DNA of 64,000 nucleotides, taken from assembly GCF_000307265.1 (NCBI RefSeq), contig NZ_DF158898.1, positions 418,005 through 482,004 of the forward strand, in the 5' to 3' direction. This document shows, one piece after another, positions 1 to 12,630 of the stretch. Under the pieces are notes generated by a model. That model did no database searches, had not been told where the DNA came from, and saw only the letters and a list, made by a program, of their open reading frames with translations. Each line of letters begins with the position of its first letter. Within the stretch, counting starts at the first letter, position 1. The DNA comes from Oscillibacter ruminantium GH1. Its GTDB lineage: Bacteria; Bacillota; Clostridia; Oscillospirales; Oscillospiraceae. The translations under genes and the position numbers were made by a program.

Positions 1-608
1 AGTCTAAACGTAAAACTCGGCAATATTCCCATATTATTAAGCGATTTCCGAAAGGTACAATAATTGAAGAACGGCCTGCTGTAATAGCAAGCCGCTCCCG
101 GTATGGCGATTGGGAATTAGACCTCGTTGTGGGTCCGCATGGCTCGCGGCCTTGTCTCATGGTCATGACGGAGCGTAAAAGTCGGTTTGAGATTATCCGT
201 AAGCTGCCAAATCGTAAGACGGAATCTGTTGTGAAGGAATTAAATTTACTCTATCCGAAATATCATTTTAAGACGATTACCTGTGATAATGGCGGTGAAT
301 TTCAGGACTGGCAGCATATGGAGATTGATTCTCTCGGCAAGTCTCGTCTTAAGGTTTATTATTGTCATCCTTATTGCAGCTGTGAACGTGGTAGCAATGA
401 GCGTATGAATCGTATGATACGCCGCTTCTTTCCTAAGGGTACAAACTTTAAGGATGTTACTAAAAAGCGTATACAGGAAGTGCAGGACTTTTTAAATGGC
501 TATGAGCGTAAAATATTAGATTGGCAAACTCCACAAGAATTGTGGAGTTATTGTAGCTGATATTCCAAACATTTACAATTATTTTAAAAATACATTGACA
601 AATCTACA
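1..608 (+). mobile_element. IS30-family insertion sequence, right-hand part
   Basis: The window opens inside an insertion sequence. It carries the 3' two thirds of an IS30-type transposase. After the stop codon, the sequence AATCTACA at 601-608 is the complement of TGTAGATT, which resembles the terminal bases of IS30-type inverted repeats, so I place the right end at about 608. The left end and any target duplication lie outside the window. The element is clearly richer in A+T than the genes that follow, in keeping with transfer. Confidence 0.7.
3..560 (+). CDS. IS30-family transposase (5' end missing)
   Basis: The frame is open from base 3 of the window to the stop at 558-560, so the first visible residues belong to a protein that begins upstream. 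The retroviral-integrase-like core is visible: GDWELDLVVG supplies the first Asp, TCDNGGEF the second, and ERGSNERMNRMIRRFFPKGT the catalytic Glu, giving the DDE triad in the spacing expected for IS30. The sequence ends with a short tail typical of the family. It catalyses cut-and-paste or circle-mediated transposition of its own element. Nothing in the visible part is broken, so the element may be intact. It is an insertion next to the sporulation genes and has no visible link to them. Confidence 0.9.
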   Translation, partial: SKRKTRQYSHIIKRFPKGTIIEERPAVIASRSRYGDWELDLVVGPHGSRPCLMVMTERKSRFEIIRKLPNRKTESVVKELNLLYPKYHFKTITCDNGGEFQDWQHMEIDSLGKSRLKVYYCHPYCSCERGSNERMNRMIRRFFPKGTNFKDVTKKRIQEVQDFLNGYERKILDWQTPQELWSYCS

Positions 609-2033: not shown

Positions 2034-2891
2034 TTAAATGCGCTCTTGCAGCCGGGCAAAAAGATCGGCGGTCAGACCTCTGGCCGCCTCTGTTTTATAC
2101 AGGCGGTTCGCCGGGCGGCAGTTGTCGTGGATGGTTTGGCTGATAATCTTCGTGACTGCGCTCAAAAGGTCACTGTCCTCTAAATGCCGCCCCACCATCA
2201 GGGCCTCCGTCTCCGGAACGCGCAGCGGTGTGGACGCCACCGCGCCCACGGTGAAGCGAGCCTGCTCCACCGTTCCGTCCTTCCCCATGCGCACAAGCGC
2301 GGCCATGCCCTCTCGGGAGATGGAAACCCGTTCCCGGGAACCGATCTTTTTAAAGGCACTGACACAGCCCTCGAAAGGTTTCTGGTCCATTATCACGGAT
2401 ATCACCGCCTGTCCCGGTTCCAGCGCATTCTTCTGGGGGCCCAGAATGAATTGATCCACCGGGAGGAGACGGGTGCTTCCATCTCCGCACAGCAACTCCA
2501 GCTTTGCGTCATACAGCCAGCTGACCGGGAGCATATCCCCGGCGGGCGAGGCGTTGCAGAGATTTCCCGCCATGGTGGCCTTATTCCGAATCTGAGGAGA
2601 GCCAACGTCCGAGGCCGCGTCGGCAACGGCGCGAAAGGCGGGAACGCTCTCCAGCACCTTTGTAATCTCCCACATAGTGGCCATAGCCCCCACGCGAAGC
2701 TCCCGCTCCCCAAGGCGCACCTCGTGAAGCTCTGGGATCAGGCCCGGATACAGCAGGATATCCGGGTCGAATTTGCCCCGCCGGGCTTGAATCACATAGT
2801 CCGTACCTCCGGCCACGACCTTGCTTTTGTCCGTGAATTGGGAGAGGGCGTCCGCCATCTCCCCCAGCGTTTTAGGCGTTAAACACCGCAT
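2034..2891 (-). CDS. Molybdenum hydroxylase, FAD-binding subunit (xanthine dehydrogenase family)
   Basis: A 285-residue protein of the CoxM/XdhB type. The FAD pyrophosphate motif is VVAGGTDYVIQ near residue 30, and the second FAD motif is TMAGNLCNASPAGDMLP near residue 105. The C-terminal CO-dehydrogenase flavoprotein domain follows (ISREGMAALVRM, AVASTPLRVPETE). It passes electrons from the iron-sulfur subunit through FAD to an acceptor. The ATG at 2891 overlaps the end of the iron-sulfur subunit gene by 13 nt and has GGAGGCG upstream. A longer open frame reaching 3248 only reads the neighbouring gene out of frame. It is the last gene of the three-gene operon, ending at the terminator at 1985-2019. 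Confidence 0.9.
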   Translation of the reverse strand: MRCLTPKTLGEMADALSQFTDKSKVVAGGTDYVIQARRGKFDPDILLYPGLIPELHEVRLGERELRVGAMATMWEITKVLESVPAFRAVADAASDVGSPQIRNKATMAGNLCNASPAGDMLPVSWLYDAKLELLCGDGSTRLLPVDQFILGPQKNALEPGQAVISVIMDQKPFEGCVSAFKKIGSRERVSISREGMAALVRMGKDGTVEQARFTVGAVASTPLRVPETEALMVGRHLEDSDLLSAVTKIISQTIHDNCRPANRLYKTEAARGLTADLFARLQERI

Positions 2892-3361
2892 GTGCGCTTC
2901 GCCTCCAGTTCCTTCGCCGCCCGCTGCACAGCCTTGACAATTTGTACATAACCGGAGCAGCGGCAAAGATTGCCGGACAGAGCCAGCCGGATTTCCGACT
3001 CTGTCGGGTTGGGATTTTTCAGGAGCAGGGCCTTGGCCGACATAATCATACCCGTGGTGCAAAAGCCGCACTGAATCGCGATTTCCTCTACAAAGCAGGT
3101 TTGCAGAATGTCCAGCTCGCCCAGCGCGGCCAGACCCTCGATGGTGGTGACGCGGCGGCCCTCCAGCTGCGCGGCAAGCGTCAGGCAGGCGTGAACCGCC
3201 TGATCGTCCAATAAAACGGTGCATGCGCCGCATTCGCCTTCTGCGCACCCTTCCTTAACGCCGGTGAGGTAGAGGTCCTCCCGCAGAATGTCCAGCAGGC
3301 GACGGTCGGGAGCCGTCTCCAGTTCAATTGGTTTTTCGTTAACAAAAAAGTGAAGTGTCAT
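2879..3361 (-). CDS. Molybdenum hydroxylase, [2Fe-2S] subunit
   Basis: A 160-residue CoxS/XdhC-type protein. The N-terminal plant-type ferredoxin domain has CAEGECGACTVLLDD and a later Cys in HACLTL. The C-terminal helical [2Fe-2S] domain has QCGFCTTGMI and GNLCRCSGYVQI. Length and cysteine order match the family. It relays electrons from the molybdenum site to the FAD subunit. Its ATG (3361-3359) overlaps the stop of the large subunit in an ATGA junction, so the two are translationally coupled. The order large, small, medium differs from many xdhABC operons but is common in Clostridia. Confidence 0.92.
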   Translation of the reverse strand: MTLHFFVNEKPIELETAPDRRLLDILREDLYLTGVKEGCAEGECGACTVLLDDQAVHACLTLAAQLEGRRVTTIEGLAALGELDILQTCFVEEIAIQCGFCTTGMIMSAKALLLKNPNPTESEIRLALSGNLCRCSGYVQIVKAVQRAAKELEAKRTCGV

Positions 3362-5613
3362 TGCTCTCTCTCCTTGGCCAGATATTTCAAAATGCAGTCC
3401 GGATCATAAGGCAGTGTCTCCAGAGAACTTCCCAGCGCGTCGTTTACCGCGCCGCATACGGCGGGAGCCGCCGGCACATAGCAGACCTCGCCAATGGATT
3501 TGGCCCCGAAAGGCCCCTCCTGCGAACGACCCTCCGTCAGGAGCTTCACCTGAATATCGGGAAGGTCTGTGGCCAAAAACAGATGGTACTTGGAAAGGCT
3601 CTCCGTACAGCGCCCATTCTTATCCACCGTCAGTTTTTCCCGCAGCGCTGCGCCGCATCCCATCTGGGCCGCACCCTGAATTTGAGCGGCGCACATGGCC
3701 GGGTTGATGGGCTGGCCGATGTCATGAACGGCCAGATAATCCAAAATCTTTGTAAACCCGGTCCAAGTGTCCACCTCCACATGGGCAAAGTGCACGCCGG
3801 TAACGCCGGGATTGGAGGTATTGTTGAACTGTGTCAGGATGCTGACGTTGCGCTTGAGTTTGACAATGCTCTCCCGGGACAGCTGGGCAAGGGATATCTT
3901 CACCCCTTCATCGTTCCGGCAGCGAACGGCGGAATCCTTTAGATACAGGCTCTCTTGGGGCAGGGAAAACAGCTTTGCGGCCCGCTCCAAAATCTCGTCC
4001 CGCAACATAACTGCCGCCTCATAAGCCGCACGGCCCAAAACAAAGGTGGTGCGGCTGGCAAAGCAGCCGTAGTCCACCGGAGTGACCGCGGTATCGCCCT
4101 CAGGCAGATAAACGTCCGTGTCGGGTATGTCCAGAACCTCACCGATAATCATCTGCATGGCTGTCACTGTGCCGCAGCCGTGGTCGTGGAGCGTCAAAGC
4201 GGCCTGCACCGTGCCGTCCTCGTTGAGACTGAGCCGCCCCTCCCCATAATCGTTGAAACGGGGATAATAAGTGTTGCCGTGTCCGCCGCAGCCCACGCCC
4301 ACGCCCCGGCGAAAACGGGGATTGGCAGTGTTGAACGCCCGATCTTCTTCCACCAGTTCATCCCAGTGGAAGGCCGACCGGCCCTGTTCCAAAGCCTCAT
4401 AAATCCGAATGTCCTCCAGAGGAACGCCGCTTTTGCGGTCAATCTCGCCGGGGAGAAGCGCGTTTTTCAGCCGCAGCGCAATCCGGCCCATGCCAAGCCG
4501 CCGGGCAGCTTGGTCAAGATGATGCTCCATCATAATGGCTTCCTCCGCGGCAGACCAGCTGCGGAACGCGCCGGAAACCGGCGTATTGGAGCTAATGACC
4601 CGCCCGCGGTAATGGAAGTACGGAACCCGATAGCAGCGGAAGGGTTTGCCGGACAGGGTTCGGATGTAGTCACAGGAGTTCCCGATGTACGCACCGGCAT
4701 CCAGCAGTACGTCCATATCAAGAGCAACCAGTGTACCGTCGGGCTTGAACTTGCTGCGAACCACCGCGCGCATCGCAGCGCGGACAACGGTGCAGCTCAT
4801 GGCCTCTCCCCGACTGTAAACCAACTTCACAGGACGGCCCAGTGCCTTGGCGATCAGCGCGGCGGTGGGCTCCAGGAACCACTCCTGCTTACCGCCGAAG
4901 GACCCGCCCATGGTGGTTTTGACCACCCGCACACGATGAAAGGGCATCTCCAGAAAATCCGCCAGCACAATGCGGATTCCATGGACGGTCTGGTTGGGAC
5001 TGTACACCGTCAGTTGCTGCTGATAGGGGTCGTAGTCCGCCACGCAGACATGCGGCTCCATGGTGGCATGATGCAGCCGTGGAATTTCAGTGAAGCTCTC
5101 CACCTCGATCAGCCCGTCTTTCTCCGGCGCGGTTCCCACATCGAAGGAAAATTCATCCCGGATCGGGGATTCGCCCGGAAGGCAGTTTTGTCCTGCAAGA
5201 GTGTCGTCAAAGCCGGTGGTAAAGGGCAGTTCCTCGTATTCCACCTCTATCAGGCGGGCGGCCTTCTCCGCCGTCTCCTGATTGCTGGCAGCCACCGCCG
5301 CCACCCGGTCGCCCACATATCGGACATAGCTGTTGAAGGCCCGCTCCTCGTCCGGCAGCTCCTGCGCTATGTTGGAGCGATAGTGGCTGTAAGTCCGCTC
5401 CGACGTGTTGAAGCAGTGAAACACACCGAAAACGCCGGGCAGCGCCAGCGCCTTTTCCGCGTGGATCTGTCTGACGTAGCCATGGGGAATCGTGCTGTGA
5501 ACCACCACCACATAGGCCATGTTGGGCAGCATGATGTCTGCGGCATATTTTACAAAACCCGCGGCTTTTCCCCGGGCATCATGAATTGGTTTATCTGTAC
5601 CGATCAATTTCAA
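3358..5613 (-). CDS. Molybdenum hydroxylase, molybdopterin-binding large subunit
   Basis: A 751-residue protein of the xanthine dehydrogenase/aldehyde oxidase large-subunit family. An N-terminal a/b hammerhead domain begins at KAAGFVKYAAD. Cofactor motifs follow: GGSFGGKQEWF, GAFRSWSAAEE (the usual AFRGFG...Q stretch, altered here), QIQGAAQMGCGAAL, and GAKSIGEVCYVPAAP near the C-terminus, which carries the invariant catalytic Glu. The family hydroxylates aromatic heterocycles or aldehydes with water as oxygen source. The start is a TTG at 5613 with GAGGAG seven nt upstream; the reading from 5649 has no ribosome site. Substrate cannot be read from the sequence. Xanthine or another purine is the default, but the shared operator with the ergothionase-like operon suggests an imidazole or related heterocycle (inference). 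Confidence 0.9.
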   Translation of the reverse strand: MKLIGTDKPIHDARGKAAGFVKYAADIMLPNMAYVVVVHSTIPHGYVRQIHAEKALALPGVFGVFHCFNTSERTYSHYRSNIAQELPDEERAFNSYVRYVGDRVAAVAASNQETAEKAARLIEVEYEELPFTTGFDDTLAGQNCLPGESPIRDEFSFDVGTAPEKDGLIEVESFTEIPRLHHATMEPHVCVADYDPYQQQLTVYSPNQTVHGIRIVLADFLEMPFHRVRVVKTTMGGSFGGKQEWFLEPTAALIAKALGRPVKLVYSRGEAMSCTVVRAAMRAVVRSKFKPDGTLVALDMDVLLDAGAYIGNSCDYIRTLSGKPFRCYRVPYFHYRGRVISSNTPVSGAFRSWSAAEEAIMMEHHLDQAARRLGMGRIALRLKNALLPGEIDRKSGVPLEDIRIYEALEQGRSAFHWDELVEEDRAFNTANPRFRRGVGVGCGGHGNTYYPRFNDYGEGRLSLNEDGTVQAALTLHDHGCGTVTAMQMIIGEVLDIPDTDVYLPEGDTAVTPVDYGCFASRTTFVLGRAAYEAAVMLRDEILERAAKLFSLPQESLYLKDSAVRCRNDEGVKISLAQLSRESIVKLKRNVSILTQFNNTSNPGVTGVHFAHVEVDTWTGFTKILDYLAVHDIGQPINPAMCAAQIQGAAQMGCGAALREKLTVDKNGRCTESLSKYHLFLATDLPDIQVKLLTEGRSQEGPFGAKSIGEVCYVPAAPAVCGAVNDALGSSLETLPYDPDCILKYLAKEREQ

Positions 5614-5676: not shown

Positions 5677-5708
5677 AGTATAGCATCTCCGCGTTGAATC
5701 AGCGTTGA
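5677..5708 (-). promoter_or_regulatory. SARP-like operator and -10 of the hydroxylase operon
   Basis: On the minus strand: TCAAC at 5708-5704, TCAAC again at 5697-5693 (11-bp period; the longer TCAACGC is also repeated), 10 bp, then the -10 TATACT at 5682-5677. There is no recognisable -35. Direct heptamers with an 11-bp period, the last ending 8 bp before the -10, are the known layout of SARP activator sites. The divergent neighbour encodes a BTAD protein of that class. The same TCAAC pair with the same period is upstream of the ergothionase-like gene. Confidence 0.6.
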
Positions 5709-5763
5709 GTGTTTCTGCCTGTCGTGCTTCAGGTCCATTTTTTCCTCTGTGGGCGCAGAAATA

Positions 5764-5834
5764 TTCAGAAAATCTTGCTGCTTTTCAGAAAATCGTTGAA
5801 AGCTGTTGCACGCTTTTAACGCTTGTGTTAAATT
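5764..5834 (+). promoter_or_regulatory. Promoter of the BTAD regulator with upstream direct repeats
   Basis: A sigma-A-like promoter TTGCAC (5806-5811), 17 nt, TAAATT (5829-5834) lies 51 nt before the regulator start. Just upstream are two exact copies of TTCAGAAAATC at 5764-5774 and 5784-5794, with a 20-bp period. They may be a second operator or an autoregulatory site. Confidence 0.45.
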
Positions 5835-5885
5835 GTAAGAAAACGCATCGCCATATTCTGTGTGGAAATTAAGGAGGGCAACCAC

Positions 5886-8800
5886 ATGGCTGAACTGACG
5901 GCAAGGCTGTTTGGAATTCCGTCCGTCTGTATGGACGGACGCGAAATCACGCTGCCCTATAAAAAAGCGGATGCGCTGCTGTACTACTTGCTGATTAAGG
6001 GCAAGGCATCCCGCAGCGAACTGATTGGTCTGCTCTGGGGGGACACGGACGTCTCCACCGCACAAAAGAACCTGCGCCATGCCATCTATTCCATTCGCAA
6101 GGAATTGAATTGTGATCCTTTTCAGAGTGGGCAGCGAACCATGCTGGAATTCAACCCGGCGCTTCATATCCAATGCGACGTTTTGGATTTCCTGAAACGG
6201 GGCGATCTTGGCGCATATCACGGGGAGCTTTTGCGGGATTTTGAAATTCATCGGGCCAACGCTTTTGACGAATGGTTGAGCGACGAGCGGAATCTGCTGC
6301 AATCCCAGTATTTGCAGCGTTTGCTGGCTGCGGAAAAAGAGGCTTTTTTCTGTGGCGACTTTGCCCGGGCAGAAAAATACGGTCTGGCCTATGTGGAAGT
6401 GGACCCACTGGAGGAAACCGCCGTTTTAACGCTGATGCAAATCTACTGCGCCCAAAAAAAATTCCGTAAAGCAATTGGCCTTTACCACACGCTATGCAAA
6501 AACCTTTCCGATGCGTTCAGCATTTCCCCACTGAAGGAGACAACGGCGCTTTACTACAAAATCGTGGACGAGTGGAACGCGTCCACTTATAAGATTGACG
6601 ATCAAAATGACCAGCAGCTTTTCGGCAAGGATTTGGTGCTGCGCAAGCTGCTGATGCTGTGCAACGGCTCTCGGACAGAGCGTAAAAAGCCGGGGCTGCT
6701 GATTCAGGGGAAAATCGGCGTAGGCAAAACCTACCTGCTGGACTACGTTCTGCGGCAATATGACTTTTCGGACTGGTTGGTGTGCCGGGTTTCGTGCTAT
6801 CAGTCGGAAATGCGCACCGCTCTGGCGCCTTGGAACGCAGTGATGCTGGAGCTGATGTCGGAGATCAAGCCTTGGCACATCCAGATTCCAGAGGTCTATA
6901 TGAAAACGGCCACCGGCCTTTTCCCCTGCCTTTCTCTGGAATGCCAGCAGGATTATGTGACCACGGTGGGCGACTATCCCGCCGAGACGGACTATCATAT
7001 CGCGCAGGAGAGCACGCTGCTGATCTTCTCCGCCATTGCCAAAAAGCTGCCCATCCTGCTTGTGTTTGAGGATATCCAATGGATGGACGCCAGCAGTGCG
7101 GACATGCTGCTGCTGCTTTTGCGGCGGCTTGCCAACCAGGACGTCACCATTGTGTGCACCAGCCGCGACACCAGCCCGCTCCACATTCAGCAGATGCTGG
7201 AGACGGCGCAGATGGATAAACTGCTTGAAAGCTGCACCATGTATAACTTCACTTGGGATGAGACAAAAAATTTCGTCAGTTACTATCTCCCAGAGCGCTC
7301 CACACCCGAGGTCGTTGACGAGATCTATCACATTACGGAAGGCAACGGGCTTTTACTGGTGCAGTTGCTCAATTCCATGCAGGAGACGAAAGAACCCACT
7401 CACATCCCAAGCGATCTGAGCGGAATCATCCGCTCCCGACTCTCCAACCTGACCCCGGACGAGTCCCGGGTTTTGGACGCCATCTCCGTGTTCACGGACT
7501 GGGCTTCTTTTGATATTCTGACTTCGATCTTGACTAAGGACCCTCTGGAGCTGATGTATCTTTGCAACCAGCTGAAGCAAAAGGCTCTTCTGACGGAACT
7601 CACCAAAAATGGGACTCTGGGCTATGCCTTTTCCCACAAAAAAATTAAAGAGATCTTAGCCCAGCAACAATCGGAGTCCGCCCGCCGAATCTTGCATCTG
7701 CGGGTGGCACAGTATCTGGAAACGCAGATCAGCGGCGAACACCGGGAGCCATACGAACGGCTCATCAACCATTACACGGCGGGTGGAGATCGATATAAGG
7801 CATTTAAATACAAGGTTTTGTCTCTCAGTGCCTTCGCAGGAATGTGCTATGAGCTTCTGCCCATTTTAACATCGGATACAGAGTCTCTGGCTTTTGGCGA
7901 AGAAGGCATCATGGGTTACTTTCAGGTTTTGGAAGAAGAACTTTCCAGTCTGCGGGCGATCCGGTTCAGTGCAGACACACGGGAATTGGATTGGCTTGAA
8001 AGGGACCTGCTCTATGCCGAAAGCCGCTTCTGTGTTCACAGCGGGACCTATGACCGGGGCTTGGCCGTGCTGAATTGTCTGCTGGAGAGCAGCGAAGCCG
8101 CTGAAGATTGGGAAATGGCTATCAAGACGCATCTGCAATTTATTTACTGCGCCATTCAGACCTATGATTTTGACATGTTGCAAACGCATCTAAAATCCGG
8201 AATGCAGTATCGGGCAAAAATGGAACACATGCCGGAGTGGGGCAGCTACCTGCGGCTGTCCGGCCTGCTGGAGATGATGCTTGGAAACTATCAAGAGGCC
8301 CGCGCTCAGATGAATGCGTCTATTGCTGCTTTTAAAAAACTGGATTCGAATTCCAGTGGAAAATACGATATCAATATTGCCGGCGCGTATAACTACATTG
8401 GGGAATCTTACCGTCTGGAGCAAAACTACGACGAGGCGTTTCGTTATTTCAATCTTGCCATCGTTTACAATCGGAGCCGAGGCTTTTATCCCGGTGCCGC
8501 CATTTTCTACACCGATTACGGCGTAGCCGCCCACCAAAGCGGCAAAAAAGCAGAAGCGCGCCTGCTTTTTGAATACGCAGAGGAGCTTTATCAATCTTTC
8601 CACGAATACAGTCAATTCCCGATCACCCTATCTTATTTGGCGCTTTATGACGTGGAGGACGGGCGCTATGAAGATGCGGCAGCCCGCCTAAAAAAAGCGT
8701 TTAGCCTCTGCAATATGATTGGTTCTCCTTGGTGGATGGGGGTTTCCATTTACAACTGCTGGAAAATTCGCGAATTTTTGGAAAGCGAGGGGCTGGAAAT

Positions 8801-8930
8801 CCCGCAATTGCAGGCGCTCTGGCCCGCATCTAAGCGAGAGCACTGCGTCTGGGGATTGAAGTATCTCCACCGCCTAAAGCCACGGTGTGAAACGGCGGAA
8901 ATGGAACACGCGCTGCAAGCCCTCTCCTGA
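5886..8930 (+). CDS. BTAD/SARP-like transcriptional activator with AAA ATPase and TPR domains
   Basis: A 1014-residue multidomain regulator. Residues 1-90 form an OmpR-like winged helix (KADALLYYLLIKGKASRSEL, LRHAIYSIRKEL). Residues 95-230 are a bacterial transcriptional activation domain rich in helical hairpins. An AAA/NTPase domain follows, with Walker A GKIGVGKT at 275-282 and Walker B ILLVFEDIQWMD near 390-401. The rest (about 600-1014) is TPR-like (GAYNYIGESYRLEQNYDEAF). Such proteins integrate a signal and activate nearby operons by binding direct repeats. I start at ATG 5886 because AAGGAGGG lies 7 nt upstream; the GTG at 5862 does not have this. It is divergent from the hydroxylase operon and upstream of the ergothionase/BCCT operon, and matching operators at both make it the likely activator of both. 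Confidence 0.85.
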   Translation: MAELTARLFGIPSVCMDGREITLPYKKADALLYYLLIKGKASRSELIGLLWGDTDVSTAQKNLRHAIYSIRKELNCDPFQSGQRTMLEFNPALHIQCDVLDFLKRGDLGAYHGELLRDFEIHRANAFDEWLSDERNLLQSQYLQRLLAAEKEAFFCGDFARAEKYGLAYVEVDPLEETAVLTLMQIYCAQKKFRKAIGLYHTLCKNLSDAFSISPLKETTALYYKIVDEWNASTYKIDDQNDQQLFGKDLVLRKLLMLCNGSRTERKKPGLLIQGKIGVGKTYLLDYVLRQYDFSDWLVCRVSCYQSEMRTALAPWNAVMLELMSEIKPWHIQIPEVYMKTATGLFPCLSLECQQDYVTTVGDYPAETDYHIAQESTLLIFSAIAKKLPILLVFEDIQWMDASSADMLLLLLRRLANQDVTIVCTSRDTSPLHIQQMLETAQMDKLLESCTMYNFTWDETKNFVSYYLPERSTPEVVDEIYHITEGNGLLLVQLLNSMQETKEPTHIPSDLSGIIRSRLSNLTPDESRVLDAISVFTDWASFDILTSILTKDPLELMYLCNQLKQKALLTELTKNGTLGYAFSHKKIKEILAQQQSESARRILHLRVAQYLETQISGEHREPYERLINHYTAGGDRYKAFKYKVLSLSAFAGMCYELLPILTSDTESLAFGEEGIMGYFQVLEEELSSLRAIRFSADTRELDWLERDLLYAESRFCVHSGTYDRGLAVLNCLLESSEAAEDWEMAIKTHLQFIYCAIQTYDFDMLQTHLKSGMQYRAKMEHMPEWGSYLRLSGLLEMMLGNYQEARAQMNASIAAFKKLDSNSSGKYDINIAGAYNYIGESYRLEQNYDEAFRYFNLAIVYNRSRGFYPGAAIFYTDYGVAAHQSGKKAEARLLFEYAEELYQSFHEYSQFPITLSYLALYDVEDGRYEDAAARLKKAFSLCNMIGSPWWMGVSIYNCWKIREFLESEGLEIPQLQALWPASKREHCVWGLKYLHRLKPRCETAEMEHALQALS

Positions 8931-8966
8931 TCTGCGGGGTACAAAACACAAAATATGCAAAAGTCA

Positions 8967-9001
8967 AGCGCCGGGGTGCGGGAATTCCGCACCCCGGCGC
9001 T
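8967..9001 (+). terminator. Intrinsic terminator after the BTAD regulator
   Basis: 15-bp perfect stem AGCGCCGGGGTGCGG (8967-8981) and CCGCACCCCGGCGCT (8987-9001), loop GAATT, followed by CTCTTTATC. It closes the regulator transcript 37 nt after the stop. Confidence 0.85.
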
Positions 9002-9055
9002 CTCTTTATCATATCGACCTAGTCAACCTGCTTTTTTTGGGGGGTAAATCAGCGC

Positions 9056-9271
9056 TCAGACATTGGCGCACCGTGTACCTGCAACAATGTATTTTTTGCT
9101 GTCTGACACCACTATGTCCGTTTCGAACCAAAATGTAAGCAGCTCCGGCATTGTGGTCGCTTCCAGCATCTCCCGTGATACTTCCCCCTCAGCTTGACAT
9201 GCATAATGGCAGCGTGGTGTCTCCAGACTCATTCCCCGGACAATCGGCAGCCGTCCTTTGTGCCGAACCCA
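9056..9271 (-). pseudogene. Possible decayed coding fragment
   Basis: On the minus strand a 71-codon frame is open between stops, reading WVRHKGRLPIVRGMSLETP and then SREMLEATTMPELLTFWF and SKKYIVAGTRCANV to TGA at 9058-9056. The wording looks protein-like, but no good ribosome site precedes an internal ATG at 9232. The region just upstream is also protein-like in another frame (LITRLGTNGFGTKDGCRLSGE split by a stop). I read it as the remnant of a gene, family unknown. It is the only coding-like content of the 531-nt gap between the regulator and the ergothionase-like gene, besides the terminator and operator. Confidence 0.3.
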
Positions 9272-9340
9272 TTAGTCCCCAGCCGGGTAATCAATTGAAC
9301 TGGGTTCTCGAAATGTAGAAAATGGAACAGTTGACGGGAT

Positions 9341-9378
9341 TCAACTCTTTTTCAACCTTGCTGTGATAACATCATAAT
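9341..9378 (+). promoter_or_regulatory. SARP-like operator and promoter of the ergothionase/BCCT operon
   Basis: TCAAC at 9341-9345 and 9352-9356, again with an 11-bp period. Ten bp after the second copy is TAACAT (9367-9372), the same spacing as at the hydroxylase operon. An alternative -10, CATAAT, is at 9373-9378. There is no consensus -35. The extended repeats, ATTCAAC and TTTCAAC here against ACTCAAC and ATTCAAC at 5708-5693, also agree. The leader to the start codon is about 85 nt. Confidence 0.5.
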
Positions 9379-9462: not shown

Positions 9463-10971
9463 ATGTTTGAACCGTTGATTTTAGACGGCACAAACCTGAC
9501 TCTGGAGAATATGCACGATGTCATGTTCCTGAGACATCCTGTAGAAATAGCTCCGGAAGCCATGGAGTGTGCGTCGAAAGCGCGTCAAGTCCTCTTTGAC
9601 ATGGCCGCCCAAGGCCATCCTGTCTATGGCCTCAACCGAGGCGTGGGTTGGAACAAGGACAAGGAGTTTGACCAGGACTTTTTCGAAACTTATAATCGCA
9701 ATCTTCTTAACTGCCATTCTTTAGGCGTAGCTCCCTACTGCTCCACAGAAGAGGTTCGCGGCATGATGTTGCTGCGTTTAAGCACCGCCCTATGCGGCCG
9801 CACTGGTATTTCTGTGGATATTTTAAAGCTCTATCGCGATTTTCTGAATTACGGTATCCATCCCCGTGTTCCTCATCGTGGCTCCATCGGCGAGGGTGAC
9901 ATTACCACCCAGTCTTTGATCGGCCTGAGCATGATTGGAGAAAACGAAGTGGAGTACAAAGGCGAGATCATGTCTGCCACCCGCGCCTTTGAACTGACTG
10001 GTCTGAAGCCCGCCATTCTGGGTCCCAAGGATGGTCTTTCCATCGTGGCCCGAAACGGTCAGGGTGAGGCCCTTACCGCCATTCTGATCTATCAGATGGA
10101 ACAGTTGCTTCAGCTGGCCAACGGCGTCTATTGTCTGAGCCTAGAGGGATTGAACGGCGGCCTTCAGCCTTTGGGTGAGCGTGTCAATGAACTGCGTACC
10201 TTCCCAGGCCAGATTGAGACTGCCGCCATTTGCCGCAGCTATTTGGAAGGAAGTTATTTGGAACAACCCGACCCCAAGCGTGCGCTTCAGGACCCTCTCA
10301 CTTTCCGTTGTCATTCCGCTATTCAGGGCTCTATTGTGGATGCACTGAATTTTGTTCGGGAGACTCTGGTTCGTCAGGTAAACACCACCGACGACAACCC
10401 CTGTATCCATTACGAAAACAGCACCACCTCTGTCAGCCCCAATTTTGAGGTAACAACCTTGGTACTTGGCGTTGAGATGCTGGCTAATGCGTTGAGCCAC
10501 ATGTCCCGAACAGCCTGCAATCGCCTGATTCATCTGGCTGACCCGGCATTTACCGGTTTGAGCCGGTTCCTTACTCCCGAGGATGTAAAAGTCATTGCGT
10601 ACGGTACCATTCAGAAGGTGTTTACCGCCTTGGATGCGGAAAACCGTATGCTGGCCAATCCAAGTTCCATGGATCATATGCCGGTTGCCGGCAATATTGA
10701 AGATCACGCCAGCAATCTGCCTTTGGCCGTGGATAAGTGCATGAAAATGATCGACAATATGCGCTATATTCTGGCTATTGAAGCGATGCACGGCGCCCAG
10801 GCCACCGATCTTCGCGGAGATGTTACTCTGGGCTGCAAGACCAGCAAGCTGAAGGCAACTCTGCGCAAGGAGATTCCTTTCCTAGATAAAGACCGCAACT
10901 TGAGCCGGGATATCGCTTTGGCATACGATATGATTCTCCGCGGCGATCTCAATCGGGCTTTAGAAGATTGA
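9463..10971 (+). CDS. MIO-less ammonia-lyase homologue, probable ergothionase
   Basis: A 502-residue member of the histidine/phenylalanine ammonia-lyase fold. Family landmarks are visible: Tyr55 in YGLNRGVG, GLSIVARNGQ near 191-200, QDPLTFRCHS near 276-285, TDDNP near 309-313, and LANPSSMDHMPVAGNIEDH near 397-415. The MIO electrophile is normally made from Ala-Ser-Gly in GSVGASGDL; here that stretch is GSIGEGDI (140-147), one residue shorter and without Ala-Ser. Such a protein cannot act as an ordinary ammonia-lyase. The known MIO-independent member is ergothionase (Treponema denticola, Burkholderia), which eliminates trimethylamine from ergothioneine to give thiourocanate by acid/base catalysis. 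The adjacent betaine-type transporter fits a trimethylammonium substrate. Lys65, Lys67 and Lys385 are candidate catalytic bases (inference). AAAGGAAG precedes the ATG. Exact substrate (ergothioneine, hercynine or another) is unproven. Confidence 0.75.
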   Translation: MFEPLILDGTNLTLENMHDVMFLRHPVEIAPEAMECASKARQVLFDMAAQGHPVYGLNRGVGWNKDKEFDQDFFETYNRNLLNCHSLGVAPYCSTEEVRGMMLLRLSTALCGRTGISVDILKLYRDFLNYGIHPRVPHRGSIGEGDITTQSLIGLSMIGENEVEYKGEIMSATRAFELTGLKPAILGPKDGLSIVARNGQGEALTAILIYQMEQLLQLANGVYCLSLEGLNGGLQPLGERVNELRTFPGQIETAAICRSYLEGSYLEQPDPKRALQDPLTFRCHSAIQGSIVDALNFVRETLVRQVNTTDDNPCIHYENSTTSVSPNFEVTTLVLGVEMLANALSHMSRTACNRLIHLADPAFTGLSRFLTPEDVKVIAYGTIQKVFTALDAENRMLANPSSMDHMPVAGNIEDHASNLPLAVDKCMKMIDNMRYILAIEAMHGAQATDLRGDVTLGCKTSKLKATLRKEIPFLDKDRNLSRDIALAYDMILRGDLNRALED

Positions 10972-11004
10972 TTTATTGTGTCAAGTAAAAAGGAGAGAGA
11001 GCAT

Positions 11005-12630
11005 ATGAAAAAGGACAAGCGTTTCAGTATTCGGAAAGCTGTATTTTTCCCGCTGTTAGCTATTTATGCCGCGGTAATTGCCCTAGGTATTATCTCCCCA
11101 AAAATGTTTACTCAAGTTGAAAATACGGTGGTAAACTTTGCCTGCAATTGGTTTGGCTGGCTTTATCAATATCTGACCATCGGCATGGTCATCATTTGTG
11201 TGTGGGTTCTGTTCTCTAAAAAAATCGGCAGTATTCGCTTGGGCGGCAAAGATGCCAAACCGGTTATGAGCAAATGGAACTGGTTTGCTGTTTCCCTGTG
11301 TGGCGGTATTGCAACAGGCATTGTGTTCTGGGGAATTGCCGAGCCTATTACTCACTTTGTGGATGGTATTCCCGGTTTGTCTGTGGGTGGCACCCGCGAA
11401 GCGGCTCTGTATGCCTTGAGCACCTGTTATATGCACTGGGGTTTCCCTCTCTATGCCTACTATGCCGTAGCTGGCATCGGCATCGGTATTGCTGTTTACA
11501 ACATGCGTTTGTCCTACACCGTCTCCTCCGGCCTTTACTCTTTGGTGGGTCGCCGGATCAACGGGCGTCTGGGTGATATTATCGACCTGCTGTGCCTGTT
11601 CAGCATTGCAGGCGCCGTGTCCGCCTGCTTGGGCGTTGCCTCCATGCAAATCGGTTCTGGTACCGGACTGCTGGCTGGCTTCACTCCTACTCCCAAGACC
11701 TGGGCAATTATTTTGGTCATTATCGTGGCAACCTTCGTGATCTCCAGCTATACCGGTGTCCAGAAAGGTCTGCGCTGGATGTCCGATAAGAACGCCAAGA
11801 TCTACCTGCTACTTCTCCTCTATGTTTTCATTGTCGCCAATACCAAAAACATTCTGGCCATGTCCACGGAATCCACTGGCTTTTTTGCTCAGAACTGGAT
11901 CGTACAGAATACTTATCTGGGCGTGATGGCAGACGGCACCTCCAATTCCCAGTGGCCTGTCTGGTGGACCCTGAACTATTGGAGCTTTATGGTGGCCTAC
12001 ACCCCCATGATGGGTATTTTCTTGGCAAAGATTGCCCGTGGCCGTACTCTGCGTGAGTTCGTTCTGTTCAACTTTGCTTTGCCCGGCGGCTTTGGTATGC
12101 TTTGGTTCTCCATCTTTGGTTCCGCTTCCATCAACATGGAAATCAACGGTGCCGGCATCTATGAAGCTATGAAGAACACTGGTCTGGAGTCTACGATCTT
12201 TGCTTTCTTTAAAAATCTCCCGTTCTCCTCCATTCTGTCTGTTATCTTCATTTTGACAGCATTCCTGTCTGTTGTCACTTTGGCGGATGGCATGACGACC
12301 ACGATTACTACGATGACCCTGACTTCCAAGGTAGCTGACTCTGCTGAGCCCCCTTCCTCGTTTAAGGTGTTTTGGGGTGTGATCATGGCTTCTCTGGCTT
12401 TTATCAATATCGCTTCCGCCGCCATTACCGGCAACACCAGCGGTATTGATGCTACAAAGCTGCTGGCCATCACCTGCGCTTTCCCACTTCTTTTCGTTGT
12501 GCTGTTGCTTGCGATAGCTTGTGTGAAAACCTTGCGCCAGTACCACGAGAAATACAATGTGGTAGACGACAGTGCTCATGCAATTGTAGATGCAGACATG
12601 ATTGTTACTCACGACGAAGAGGAAATCTAA
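11005..12630 (+). CDS. BCCT-family transporter (betaine/carnitine/choline type)
   Basis: A 541-residue polytopic membrane protein with about 12 helices. Family motifs are GGIATGIVFWGIAEPITHF, YMHWGFPLYAYYAVAG, ISSYTGVQKGLRWMSD, and ARGRTLREFVLFNFALPGGFG. The aromatic-box helix reads WTLNYWSFMVAYTPMMG. The Trp residues that cage glycine betaine in BetP are mostly replaced by Phe, Met and Tyr, so a different trimethylammonium substrate is likely. The start is the ATG at 11005 with AAAAGGAGAG upstream; a GTG at 10978 would add nine residues and has no ribosome site. It follows the ergothionase-like gene by 33 nt, so the two are probably one operon: uptake, then removal of trimethylamine. It ends at a terminator at 12689-12721. 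Confidence 0.88.
   Translation: MKKDKRFSIRKAVFFPLLAIYAAVIALGIISPKMFTQVENTVVNFACNWFGWLYQYLTIGMVIICVWVLFSKKIGSIRLGGKDAKPVMSKWNWFAVSLCGGIATGIVFWGIAEPITHFVDGIPGLSVGGTREAALYALSTCYMHWGFPLYAYYAVAGIGIGIAVYNMRLSYTVSSGLYSLVGRRINGRLGDIIDLLCLFSIAGAVSACLGVASMQIGSGTGLLAGFTPTPKTWAIILVIIVATFVISSYTGVQKGLRWMSDKNAKIYLLLLLYVFIVANTKNILAMSTESTGFFAQNWIVQNTYLGVMADGTSNSQWPVWWTLNYWSFMVAYTPMMGIFLAKIARGRTLREFVLFNFALPGGFGMLWFSIFGSASINMEINGAGIYEAMKNTGLESTIFAFFKNLPFSSILSVIFILTAFLSVVTLADGMTTTITTMTLTSKVADSAEPPSSFKVFWGVIMASLAFINIASAAITGNTSGIDATKLLAITCAFPLLFVVLLLAIACVKTLRQYHEKYNVVDDSAHAIVDADMIVTHDEEEI

Follow-up and report, generated by a model that had tools for sequence, protein, structure and literature searches.

Paired TCAAC repeats as candidate operators of a SARP-type ergothioneine-breakdown regulon in Oscillibacter ruminantium GH1

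Ergothioneine, an antioxidant present in the diet, can be turned by bacteria into trimethylamine and, apparently, H2S. Feng et al. (JACS 147:257) and Zhou et al. (Cell Host Microbe 2025) have reportedly described a gut bacterial pathway for it. The present analysis concerns a 64-kb stretch of contig C3 (the window) in the genome of Oscillibacter ruminantium GH1 (3,108,242 bases, 29 contigs), where a gene for a BTAD regulator is flanked by a molybdenum (Mo) enzyme operon on the left (minus strand) and an ergothionase–BCCT operon on the right (plus strand), and where a pair of TCAAC repeats precedes each operon. The two pairs are probably, at an estimated probability of roughly 0.83, the operators of one pathway-specific ergothioneine-breakdown regulon under the neighbouring AfsR-like BTAD protein; binding, activation, the inducer, the compound on which the Mo enzyme acts and the direction of its reaction are predicted parts of this reading.

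The closest described regulator is AfsR of Streptomyces coelicolor (8hvr, 8k60, 8jke), which resembles the window protein in fold and in its domain order (OmpR-type DNA-binding, BTAD, NTPase, TPR), and whose operator likewise has a pair of repeats with an 11-bp period immediately ahead of the -10 element. According to PMC10936776, SARPs recognize repeats spaced by 11 or 22 bp, the 3' one standing 8 bp from the -10, and AfsR binds two repeats as a side-by-side dimer that contacts sigma region 4; its afsS -35 element TTCAGC, inside the upstream repeat, resembles the TTCAAC of the window. Unlike AfsR, the window regulator is not from Streptomyces, has its named relatives mostly in Firmicutes, shares only about 20% sequence identity with AfsR, and is predicted to control catabolic genes rather than antibiotic regulation. 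PimR, of the SARP-LAL type, is similar in using heptamer direct repeats with 4-bp spacers, two of which are needed for binding, but its operator lies upstream of the -35 instead of beside the -10 and has the consensus CGGCAAG (PMC5930380). With respect to the enzymes, the gut ergothioneine pathway also combines an ergothionase with a xanthine-oxidase homologue (PMC13405746, PMC12771579), and Clostridium symbiosum, for which the activity is reported, has the same genes together with a TCAAC operator (locus L037); the window differs in adding a predicted BTAD regulon.

The features that carry the argument are the following.

5693..5708, minus strand: putative operator of the Mo-enzyme operon, TCAAC (5708-5704) N6 TCAAC (5697-5693), with homologous sites before the xdh operons of relatives
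5677..5682, minus strand: -10-like TATACT, 10 bp past the proximal TCAAC, with TGC ahead (extended -10) and position-wise conservation
9341..9356, plus strand: putative operator of the ergothionase operon, TCAAC (9341-9345) N6 TCAAC (9352-9356), with homologous sites in L013, L014, L015 and L035
9367..9372, plus strand: -10-like TAACAT, 10 bp past the proximal TCAAC, a spacing common to the other sites
5886 (ATG)..8930 (stop), plus strand: BTAD regulator of 1014 aa, an AfsR-like large SARP by domains, model and fold match

An initial annotation of this DNA had named the TCAAC pairs with their 11-bp period, the 10 bp to TATACT and TAACAT, and a 1014-aa BTAD protein between the operons, and all of these are found in the sequence exactly at the coordinates listed. 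TCAAC-N6-TCAAC occurs exactly twice in the window, compared with a mean of 0.08 in shuffled versions (n=100), none of which reached 2. For the full architecture, including TANNNT, the two observed cases stand against 0.001 expected per 64 kb from a first-order Markov estimate. The whole genome contains three TCAAC-N6-TCAAC pairs and no instance of the reversed control pattern; the third pair (C4:309122) lies within a 198-aa open reading frame (ORF) and is not accompanied by a -10.

At 17 bp upstream of the two -10 elements stand ACGCTG and ACTCTT, which match TTGACA at 1 and 0 positions, respectively. Both promoters therefore lack a -35, as had been claimed. Neither repeat is found at 17 bp: the -10 is separated by 10 bp from the end of the proximal TCAAC and by 21 bp from that of the distal TCAAC. 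When the repeats are read as heptamers, TCAACNN, both window operators lie 8 bp from the -10, and thus fit the published SARP geometry in period as well as distance, an arrangement that is kept in relatives. The ergothionase promoter contains an alternative -10, CATAAT (9373-9378), and TAACAT is favoured over it solely for having the conserved spacing.

Relatives were collected with an alignment-based scan, one genome per species, which gave 76 ergothionase loci, the named ones mostly from Firmicutes; a single-protein scan had given no relative. A strict site was defined as T[CT][AG]AC-N6-T[CT][AG]AC-N10-TANNNT and searched for in these 76 loci (2.92 million strand-bases, window not included). 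This yielded 25 sites in 20 loci, 24 of them at most 300 bp upstream of an xdh, erg or bcct gene on the same strand; the 25th (L040:24) is also ahead of a BCCT gene, farther off. The upstream zones examined, in which btad genes were included too, make up 2.5% of the strand-bases, and the enrichment corresponds to a binomial p of 7e-38, a value that ignores relatedness. Among 80 settings of period and spacer, 11/10 gave the 25 sites, followed by 11/11 with 7 and 9/10 with 6. In the five nearest loci (the window, L013, L014, L015 and L035), where sites deviating from the TCAAC pair at no more than two positions were accepted, a site precedes the xdh operon in 5/5, the ergothionase gene in 5/5, and the BCCT gene in the 4/4 that have a separating gap. 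The xdh site of L014 has TATAAA and is kept out of the 25 by the TA...T requirement, and some of the BTAD-bearing loci without a strict site show variants with one more mismatch, with TAGAC, or with a spacer of 9 or 11.

A strict site is present in 16 of the 33 loci with a BTAD gene versus 4 of the 43 without one (Fisher p 0.00017). Of these four site-bearing loci, L013 belongs to a genome that holds a 51% identical BTAD on another contig; the genomes of L031 and L040 hold BTADs of 25-29% identity, that of L036 fragments only, and the three last-named loci lie on contigs of 8-10 kb. Away from the loci, 9 of the 10 pattern matches inspected fall inside ORFs of at least 188 aa on either strand. 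One off-locus match in C. symbiosum (L102) is intergenic, with no cluster gene recognized by eye alongside. The comparison of flanks in related genomes, which the initial annotation had put forward as a check, thus gave the repeats, the 11-bp period and the 10-bp distance again upstream of the same genes. On the grounds of comparative genomics, the reading of this conservation as one predicted SARP-type regulon joining both operons is well supported, and this part of the earlier proposal stands.

The regulator itself has a BTAD domain above the Pfam cut-off (PF03704). An OmpR-type DNA-binding domain and BTAD (about residues 1-242) are followed by an AAA_16 ATPase (252-428) and by TPR (TPR_12, 839-911; Pfam numbering of a 1022-aa ORF). 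An AlphaFold2 model of residues 1-252, built on a 30-row alignment, reached a mean predicted local distance difference test score (pLDDT) of 91.6. The top Foldseek matches, over residues 1-234, were AfsR (8k60, 8hvr; best E 1.7e-9) and EmbR. Comparison by VIA gave AfsR a Z of 17.4 (root-mean-square deviation 4.2, 222 residues, 23% identity), EmbR 16.1 and unrelated TPR proteins about 12. The NCBIfam equivalog of AfsR, NF053617, scores 19 bits against a cut-off of 1430, and the protein is therefore AfsR-like, not AfsR itself. A profile search using the DNA-binding domain alone found nothing useful. In combination, domains, fold and promoter geometry place it in the SARP family as a large SARP of the AfsR type, in agreement with the class first proposed, with binding and activation as predictions.

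Residue 65 lies within the recognition helix (56-74 in the model) and was compared with the operator class. Loci whose BTAD has His65 show TCAAC in 18 of 22 half-sites, TTGAC in 3 and TCGAC in 1, with a strict site in 8/10 loci; those with Asn65 show TTGAC in 18/18 half-sites, with a strict site in 8/21 loci. In these counts, L013 is represented by the BTAD from another contig (L115). Duplicate, partial or odd frames were omitted from both the BTAD tree and the residue-65 table: among the 33 BTADs of ergothionase loci these were L017, L028, L030 and L086, and among those of other loci L114, L124, L128, L132, L145, L147, L151 and L152. L028 and L030 thus have TTGAC sites yet fall outside the Asn65 count. 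Residue 65 aligns with T88 of AfsR by a profile match of only E 2.5; the AfsR segment concerned, VRTYASRLRK, fits the residues R87, T88, S91, R92, R94 and K95 named in PMC10936776. The same paper reports that T88 contacts base pair -36. If TTCAAC is matched to the TTCAGC of AfsR, -36 would be the position that switches from C to T between the classes. Such co-segregation of residue and operator would be the expected trace of a regulator that binds these sites, though an indirect one, and the code is treated as a lead.

A general code in which His65 equals TCAAC was rejected as an established fact, given the single origin of His65 among ergothionase-linked BTADs, the existence of His65 BTADs without a pair, and the occurrence of TAGAC near both Asp65 and Asn65. 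TAGAC-N6-TAGAC was observed at L123:4364 and L167:5677, at the same distance from the -10, near BTADs with Asp65 (L123) and Asn65 (L146, the same place as L167). A further operator class, TTAAC-N6-TTAAC-N10-TA...T, stands near BTAD genes at L164:6919, L165:11670 and L131:38; the L164 and L165 pairs lie about 50 bp ahead of a 327-aa gene, the L164 copy of which gave no Pfam match.

Several observations weigh against control of both operons by the neighbouring BTAD protein. Among the 33 BTAD-bearing loci, 17 are without a strict site. No operator was detected ahead of the window's BTAD gene, and none of the 25 strict sites stands before a btad gene; autoregulation is therefore unsupported. The likeness to AfsR is carried by the fold match, the profile sequence match being weak (E 2.5). 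The His65 rows of the ergothionase loci form one clade with the own-genome paralogue L133, and the link between residue and operator therefore represents one evolutionary event; furthermore, PMC10936776 describes AfsR as tolerant of a changed base pair at -36. The stretches around the His65 BTADs L134-L136 contain no TCAAC-TCAAC pair, and for L133 nothing but a mixed TTGAC/TCAAC site is seen, so the presence of His65 is not enough to predict the site. Lastly, two other BTAD paralogues of the genome, at C4:262839 and C1:402172, each adjoining a urocanase gene, could bind the operators instead.

This last point leads to an explanation in which the operators are real and the binder is one of these two paralogues, or several BTADs together, also controlling the urocanase gene. 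It gains from the C1 paralogue having His65 like the window protein, and from the TTGAC-N6-TCAAC-N10-TATAAT upstream of the adjoining urocanase gene. However, a BTAD gene is present within 33 of the 76 ergothionase loci themselves, and the nearest relatives of the window BTAD (46-51% identity) are found in the same loci, once in the same genome, as the same operators, which makes another binder distinctly unlikely. It is hardly credible that the repeats are chance matches or ordinary promoter parts, even though five-base motifs are short and the second operator class has, in TTGAC, a motif similar to a -35 box. Their rarity in window and genome, and a period and spacing held constant upstream of the same genes, contradict chance, which the shuffles, the genome count, the Markov estimate and the 80-setting scan rule out; a -35 role for TTGAC is ruled out by the wrong spacing, neither repeat standing 17 bp from the -10.

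In the favoured mechanism, with the neighbouring BTAD protein as regulator, two of its DNA-binding domains would bind next to each other on the TTCAAC-type repeats, which are separated by one helical turn and occupy the place of the missing -35, and the bound regulator would pass RNA polymerase on to the -10. Both operons, that of the Mo enzyme and that of ergothionase and BCCT, would thereby be switched on together, with the ATPase/TPR part sensing an inducer, perhaps ergothioneine or thiourocanate. The BCCT protein would import ergothioneine, and ergothionase would split it into trimethylamine and thiourocanate. From the latter, the xanthine-oxidase-type Mo enzyme would most likely remove sulfur reductively, giving urocanate and H2S, and urocanate would enter histidine breakdown via urocanase. 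The genes for these steps in the window are as follows.

3358..5613, minus strand: Mo-binding subunit, xanthine-oxidase family (Pfam, NCBIfam; ergothionase-linked clade); start TTG 5613 inferred from AGGAGG, the listed ORF extending to 5649
2879..3361, minus strand: [2Fe-2S] subunit of the Mo enzyme (Pfam, NCBIfam)
2034..2891, minus strand: FAD subunit of the Mo enzyme (Pfam, NCBIfam); start inferred, since the listed ORF extends to 3248 and overlaps the Fe-S gene
9463..10971, plus strand: predicted ergothionase (ergothioneine trimethylamine-lyase), E 1.2e-198 to 6s7j
10978..12630, plus strand: BCCT-family betaine-type transporter (Pfam, NCBIfam), recurring in related loci

All three subunits of the Mo enzyme are thus present by their Pfam domains. 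The BCCT gene starts 6 bp after the ergothionase gene, with an internal ATG at 11005, and the two are probably co-transcribed.

MIO-dependent lyases (MIO, 4-methylideneimidazole-5-one) carry Ala-Ser-Gly at the motif position. The window lyase is 61% identical to the solved Treponema denticola ergothionase (6s7j) over nearly the whole chain, as an ergothionase-like assignment had anticipated, and both proteins have SIGEGDITT (IGEGD) at the place of this motif; ergothionase is reported to lack MIO (PMC13405746). By homology and motif it is accordingly assigned as an ergothionase, with trimethylamine release as its predicted activity. Ergothionase is rare among the genomes closest to this one: a search of 295 genomes of the order gave 9 matches at E 1e-60. 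The single strong match is that of the window itself, and the remaining 8, at 29-31% identity, are presumably histidine ammonia-lyases. Of 341 genomes of the class, 15 had a match to the BTAD protein at E 1e-15. Two ergothionase-like genes are present in C. symbiosum ATCC 14940, L037 and L070, 50% and 43% identical to that of the window, and within the stretches examined L037 only has a Mo enzyme and TCAAC operator alongside.

Clustering of ORFs from 77 loci, window included, showed that 48 of them have a Mo-enzyme large subunit, 47 a BCCT gene and 33 a BTAD gene; by tblastn, BTAD is present in 33 of the 76. Genes for the Mo cofactor and for maturation are also recurrent, each named from one scanned representative: XdhC/CoxI (12 loci), a MobA-like NTP transferase (9) and MoaA-like (6). 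Urocanase, named in the same way, recurs in 19 loci. Within the 76 loci, those of Paenibacillus, Pseudochrobactrum and other proteobacterial-type loci gave no Mo-enzyme match. A quick tree of Mo subunits was built from rows longer than 600 aa, leaving out L186 and repeated copies; one clade in it (SH-aLRT 100) holds 46 of the 48 ergothionase-locus rows together with 2 of 17 paralogues from elsewhere. By this clade and the recurrent genes, the gene set is therefore largely dedicated. The xanthine-oxidase-type enzymes of L025 (Peptoniphilus catoniae) and L050 (Maledivibacter) lie outside the common clade. Apart from these two, unrelated recruitment of the window Mo enzyme and of its 32-39% identical counterparts at other loci is rejected on the grounds of this clade.

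For the Mo enzyme, conversion of thiourocanate to urocanate and H2S is favoured from clade and context. This is because PMC12771579, citing Feng et al., reports that in the ergothioneine pathway a xanthine-oxidase homologue of gut bacteria reductively cleaves an aromatic C-S bond, and PMC13405746 that thiourocanate desulfhydrase releases H2S. Urocanate as the product also fits the presence of urocanase in 8/8 genomes searched. The likely route would then run from ergothioneine to thiourocanate and trimethylamine, on to urocanate and H2S, and to urocanase. That the enzyme instead oxidizes (hydroxylates) thiourocanate or a later heterocycle might be expected from its placement by Pfam and NCBIfam in the xanthine dehydrogenase family, many of the solved relatives listed being dehydrogenases or oxidases. 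Its best solved match, however, is a reductive enzyme, 4-hydroxybenzoyl-CoA reductase, and the published homologue cleaves reductively. The ergothionase-linked Mo subunits form one clade, in which the same reaction is likely if the published enzyme belongs to it. Oxidation is consequently considered rather unlikely, and the oxidation of the remaining heterocycle that had been part of the original regulon proposal is not retained.

The two genomic paralogues and their urocanase genes lie in the stretches C1:395000-413000 (L157) and C4:255000-274000 (L158). The site before the C1 urocanase (L157:3232) stands 300 bp ahead of the probable ATG; the C4 urocanase has no site. Sites of this architecture also stand before the L209 urocanase, L209 belonging to the L035 genome, and before an L166 gene of 680 aa that is urocanase-like by appearance. 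Across the urocanase loci L203-L210, a site is found in 2/8, namely L209 and the C1 gene (L203), and none in 6/8. BTADs were also observed near lyase genes 27-30% identical to ergothionase, in L160, L161, L166, L170, L171 and L172 (the last in the genome of L026, Acidaminococcus massiliensis). These lyases are presumably HutH, and such neighbourhoods suggest SARP-type control of histidine breakdown. A broader, tentative reading would be that of an AfsR-like SARP family outside Actinobacteria for imidazole catabolism (ergothioneine, urocanate, histidine), acting on paired T-N-N-A-C repeats one helical turn apart, with a -36 code (His to C, Asn to T) read by the equivalent of AfsR T88, and with an ergothioneine regulon that includes urocanase and feeds Hut. 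It is regarded as doubtful because AfsR tolerates change at -36 and because 6/8 urocanase loci are without a site.

The enzyme pathway is already published (Feng et al., as represented in citing papers), and to this extent the initial annotation, which knew of no description of the set as one system, is outdated; what appear to be new are the regulator and the operators, as a SARP-like mechanism in a different role and lineage. For these, no description was found: the literature searched contained no BTAD or SARP regulator and no operators for the ergothioneine pathway, which is weak evidence of absence as subscription papers lay outside the search. None of the literature matches listed joins ergothioneine with SARP or BTAD, and no description of how anaerobes control ergothioneine breakdown was found in the literature searched. 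A regulon of the proposed kind would explain how such anaerobes turn the pathway on. One regulator with a conserved operator makes induction testable in cultured gut species, such as C. symbiosum with the same site (L037), and allows genomes to be screened for regulated ergothioneine degraders. It would also carry a promoter rule from Streptomyces antibiotic genes into anaerobic catabolism, and the pairs of operator and recognition helix are offered for studies of base recognition by SARPs.

At the left edge of the window (129-560 and 1171-1950), a weak integrase-core (rve) match below the Pfam cut-off was observed beside a sigma-70-family gene.

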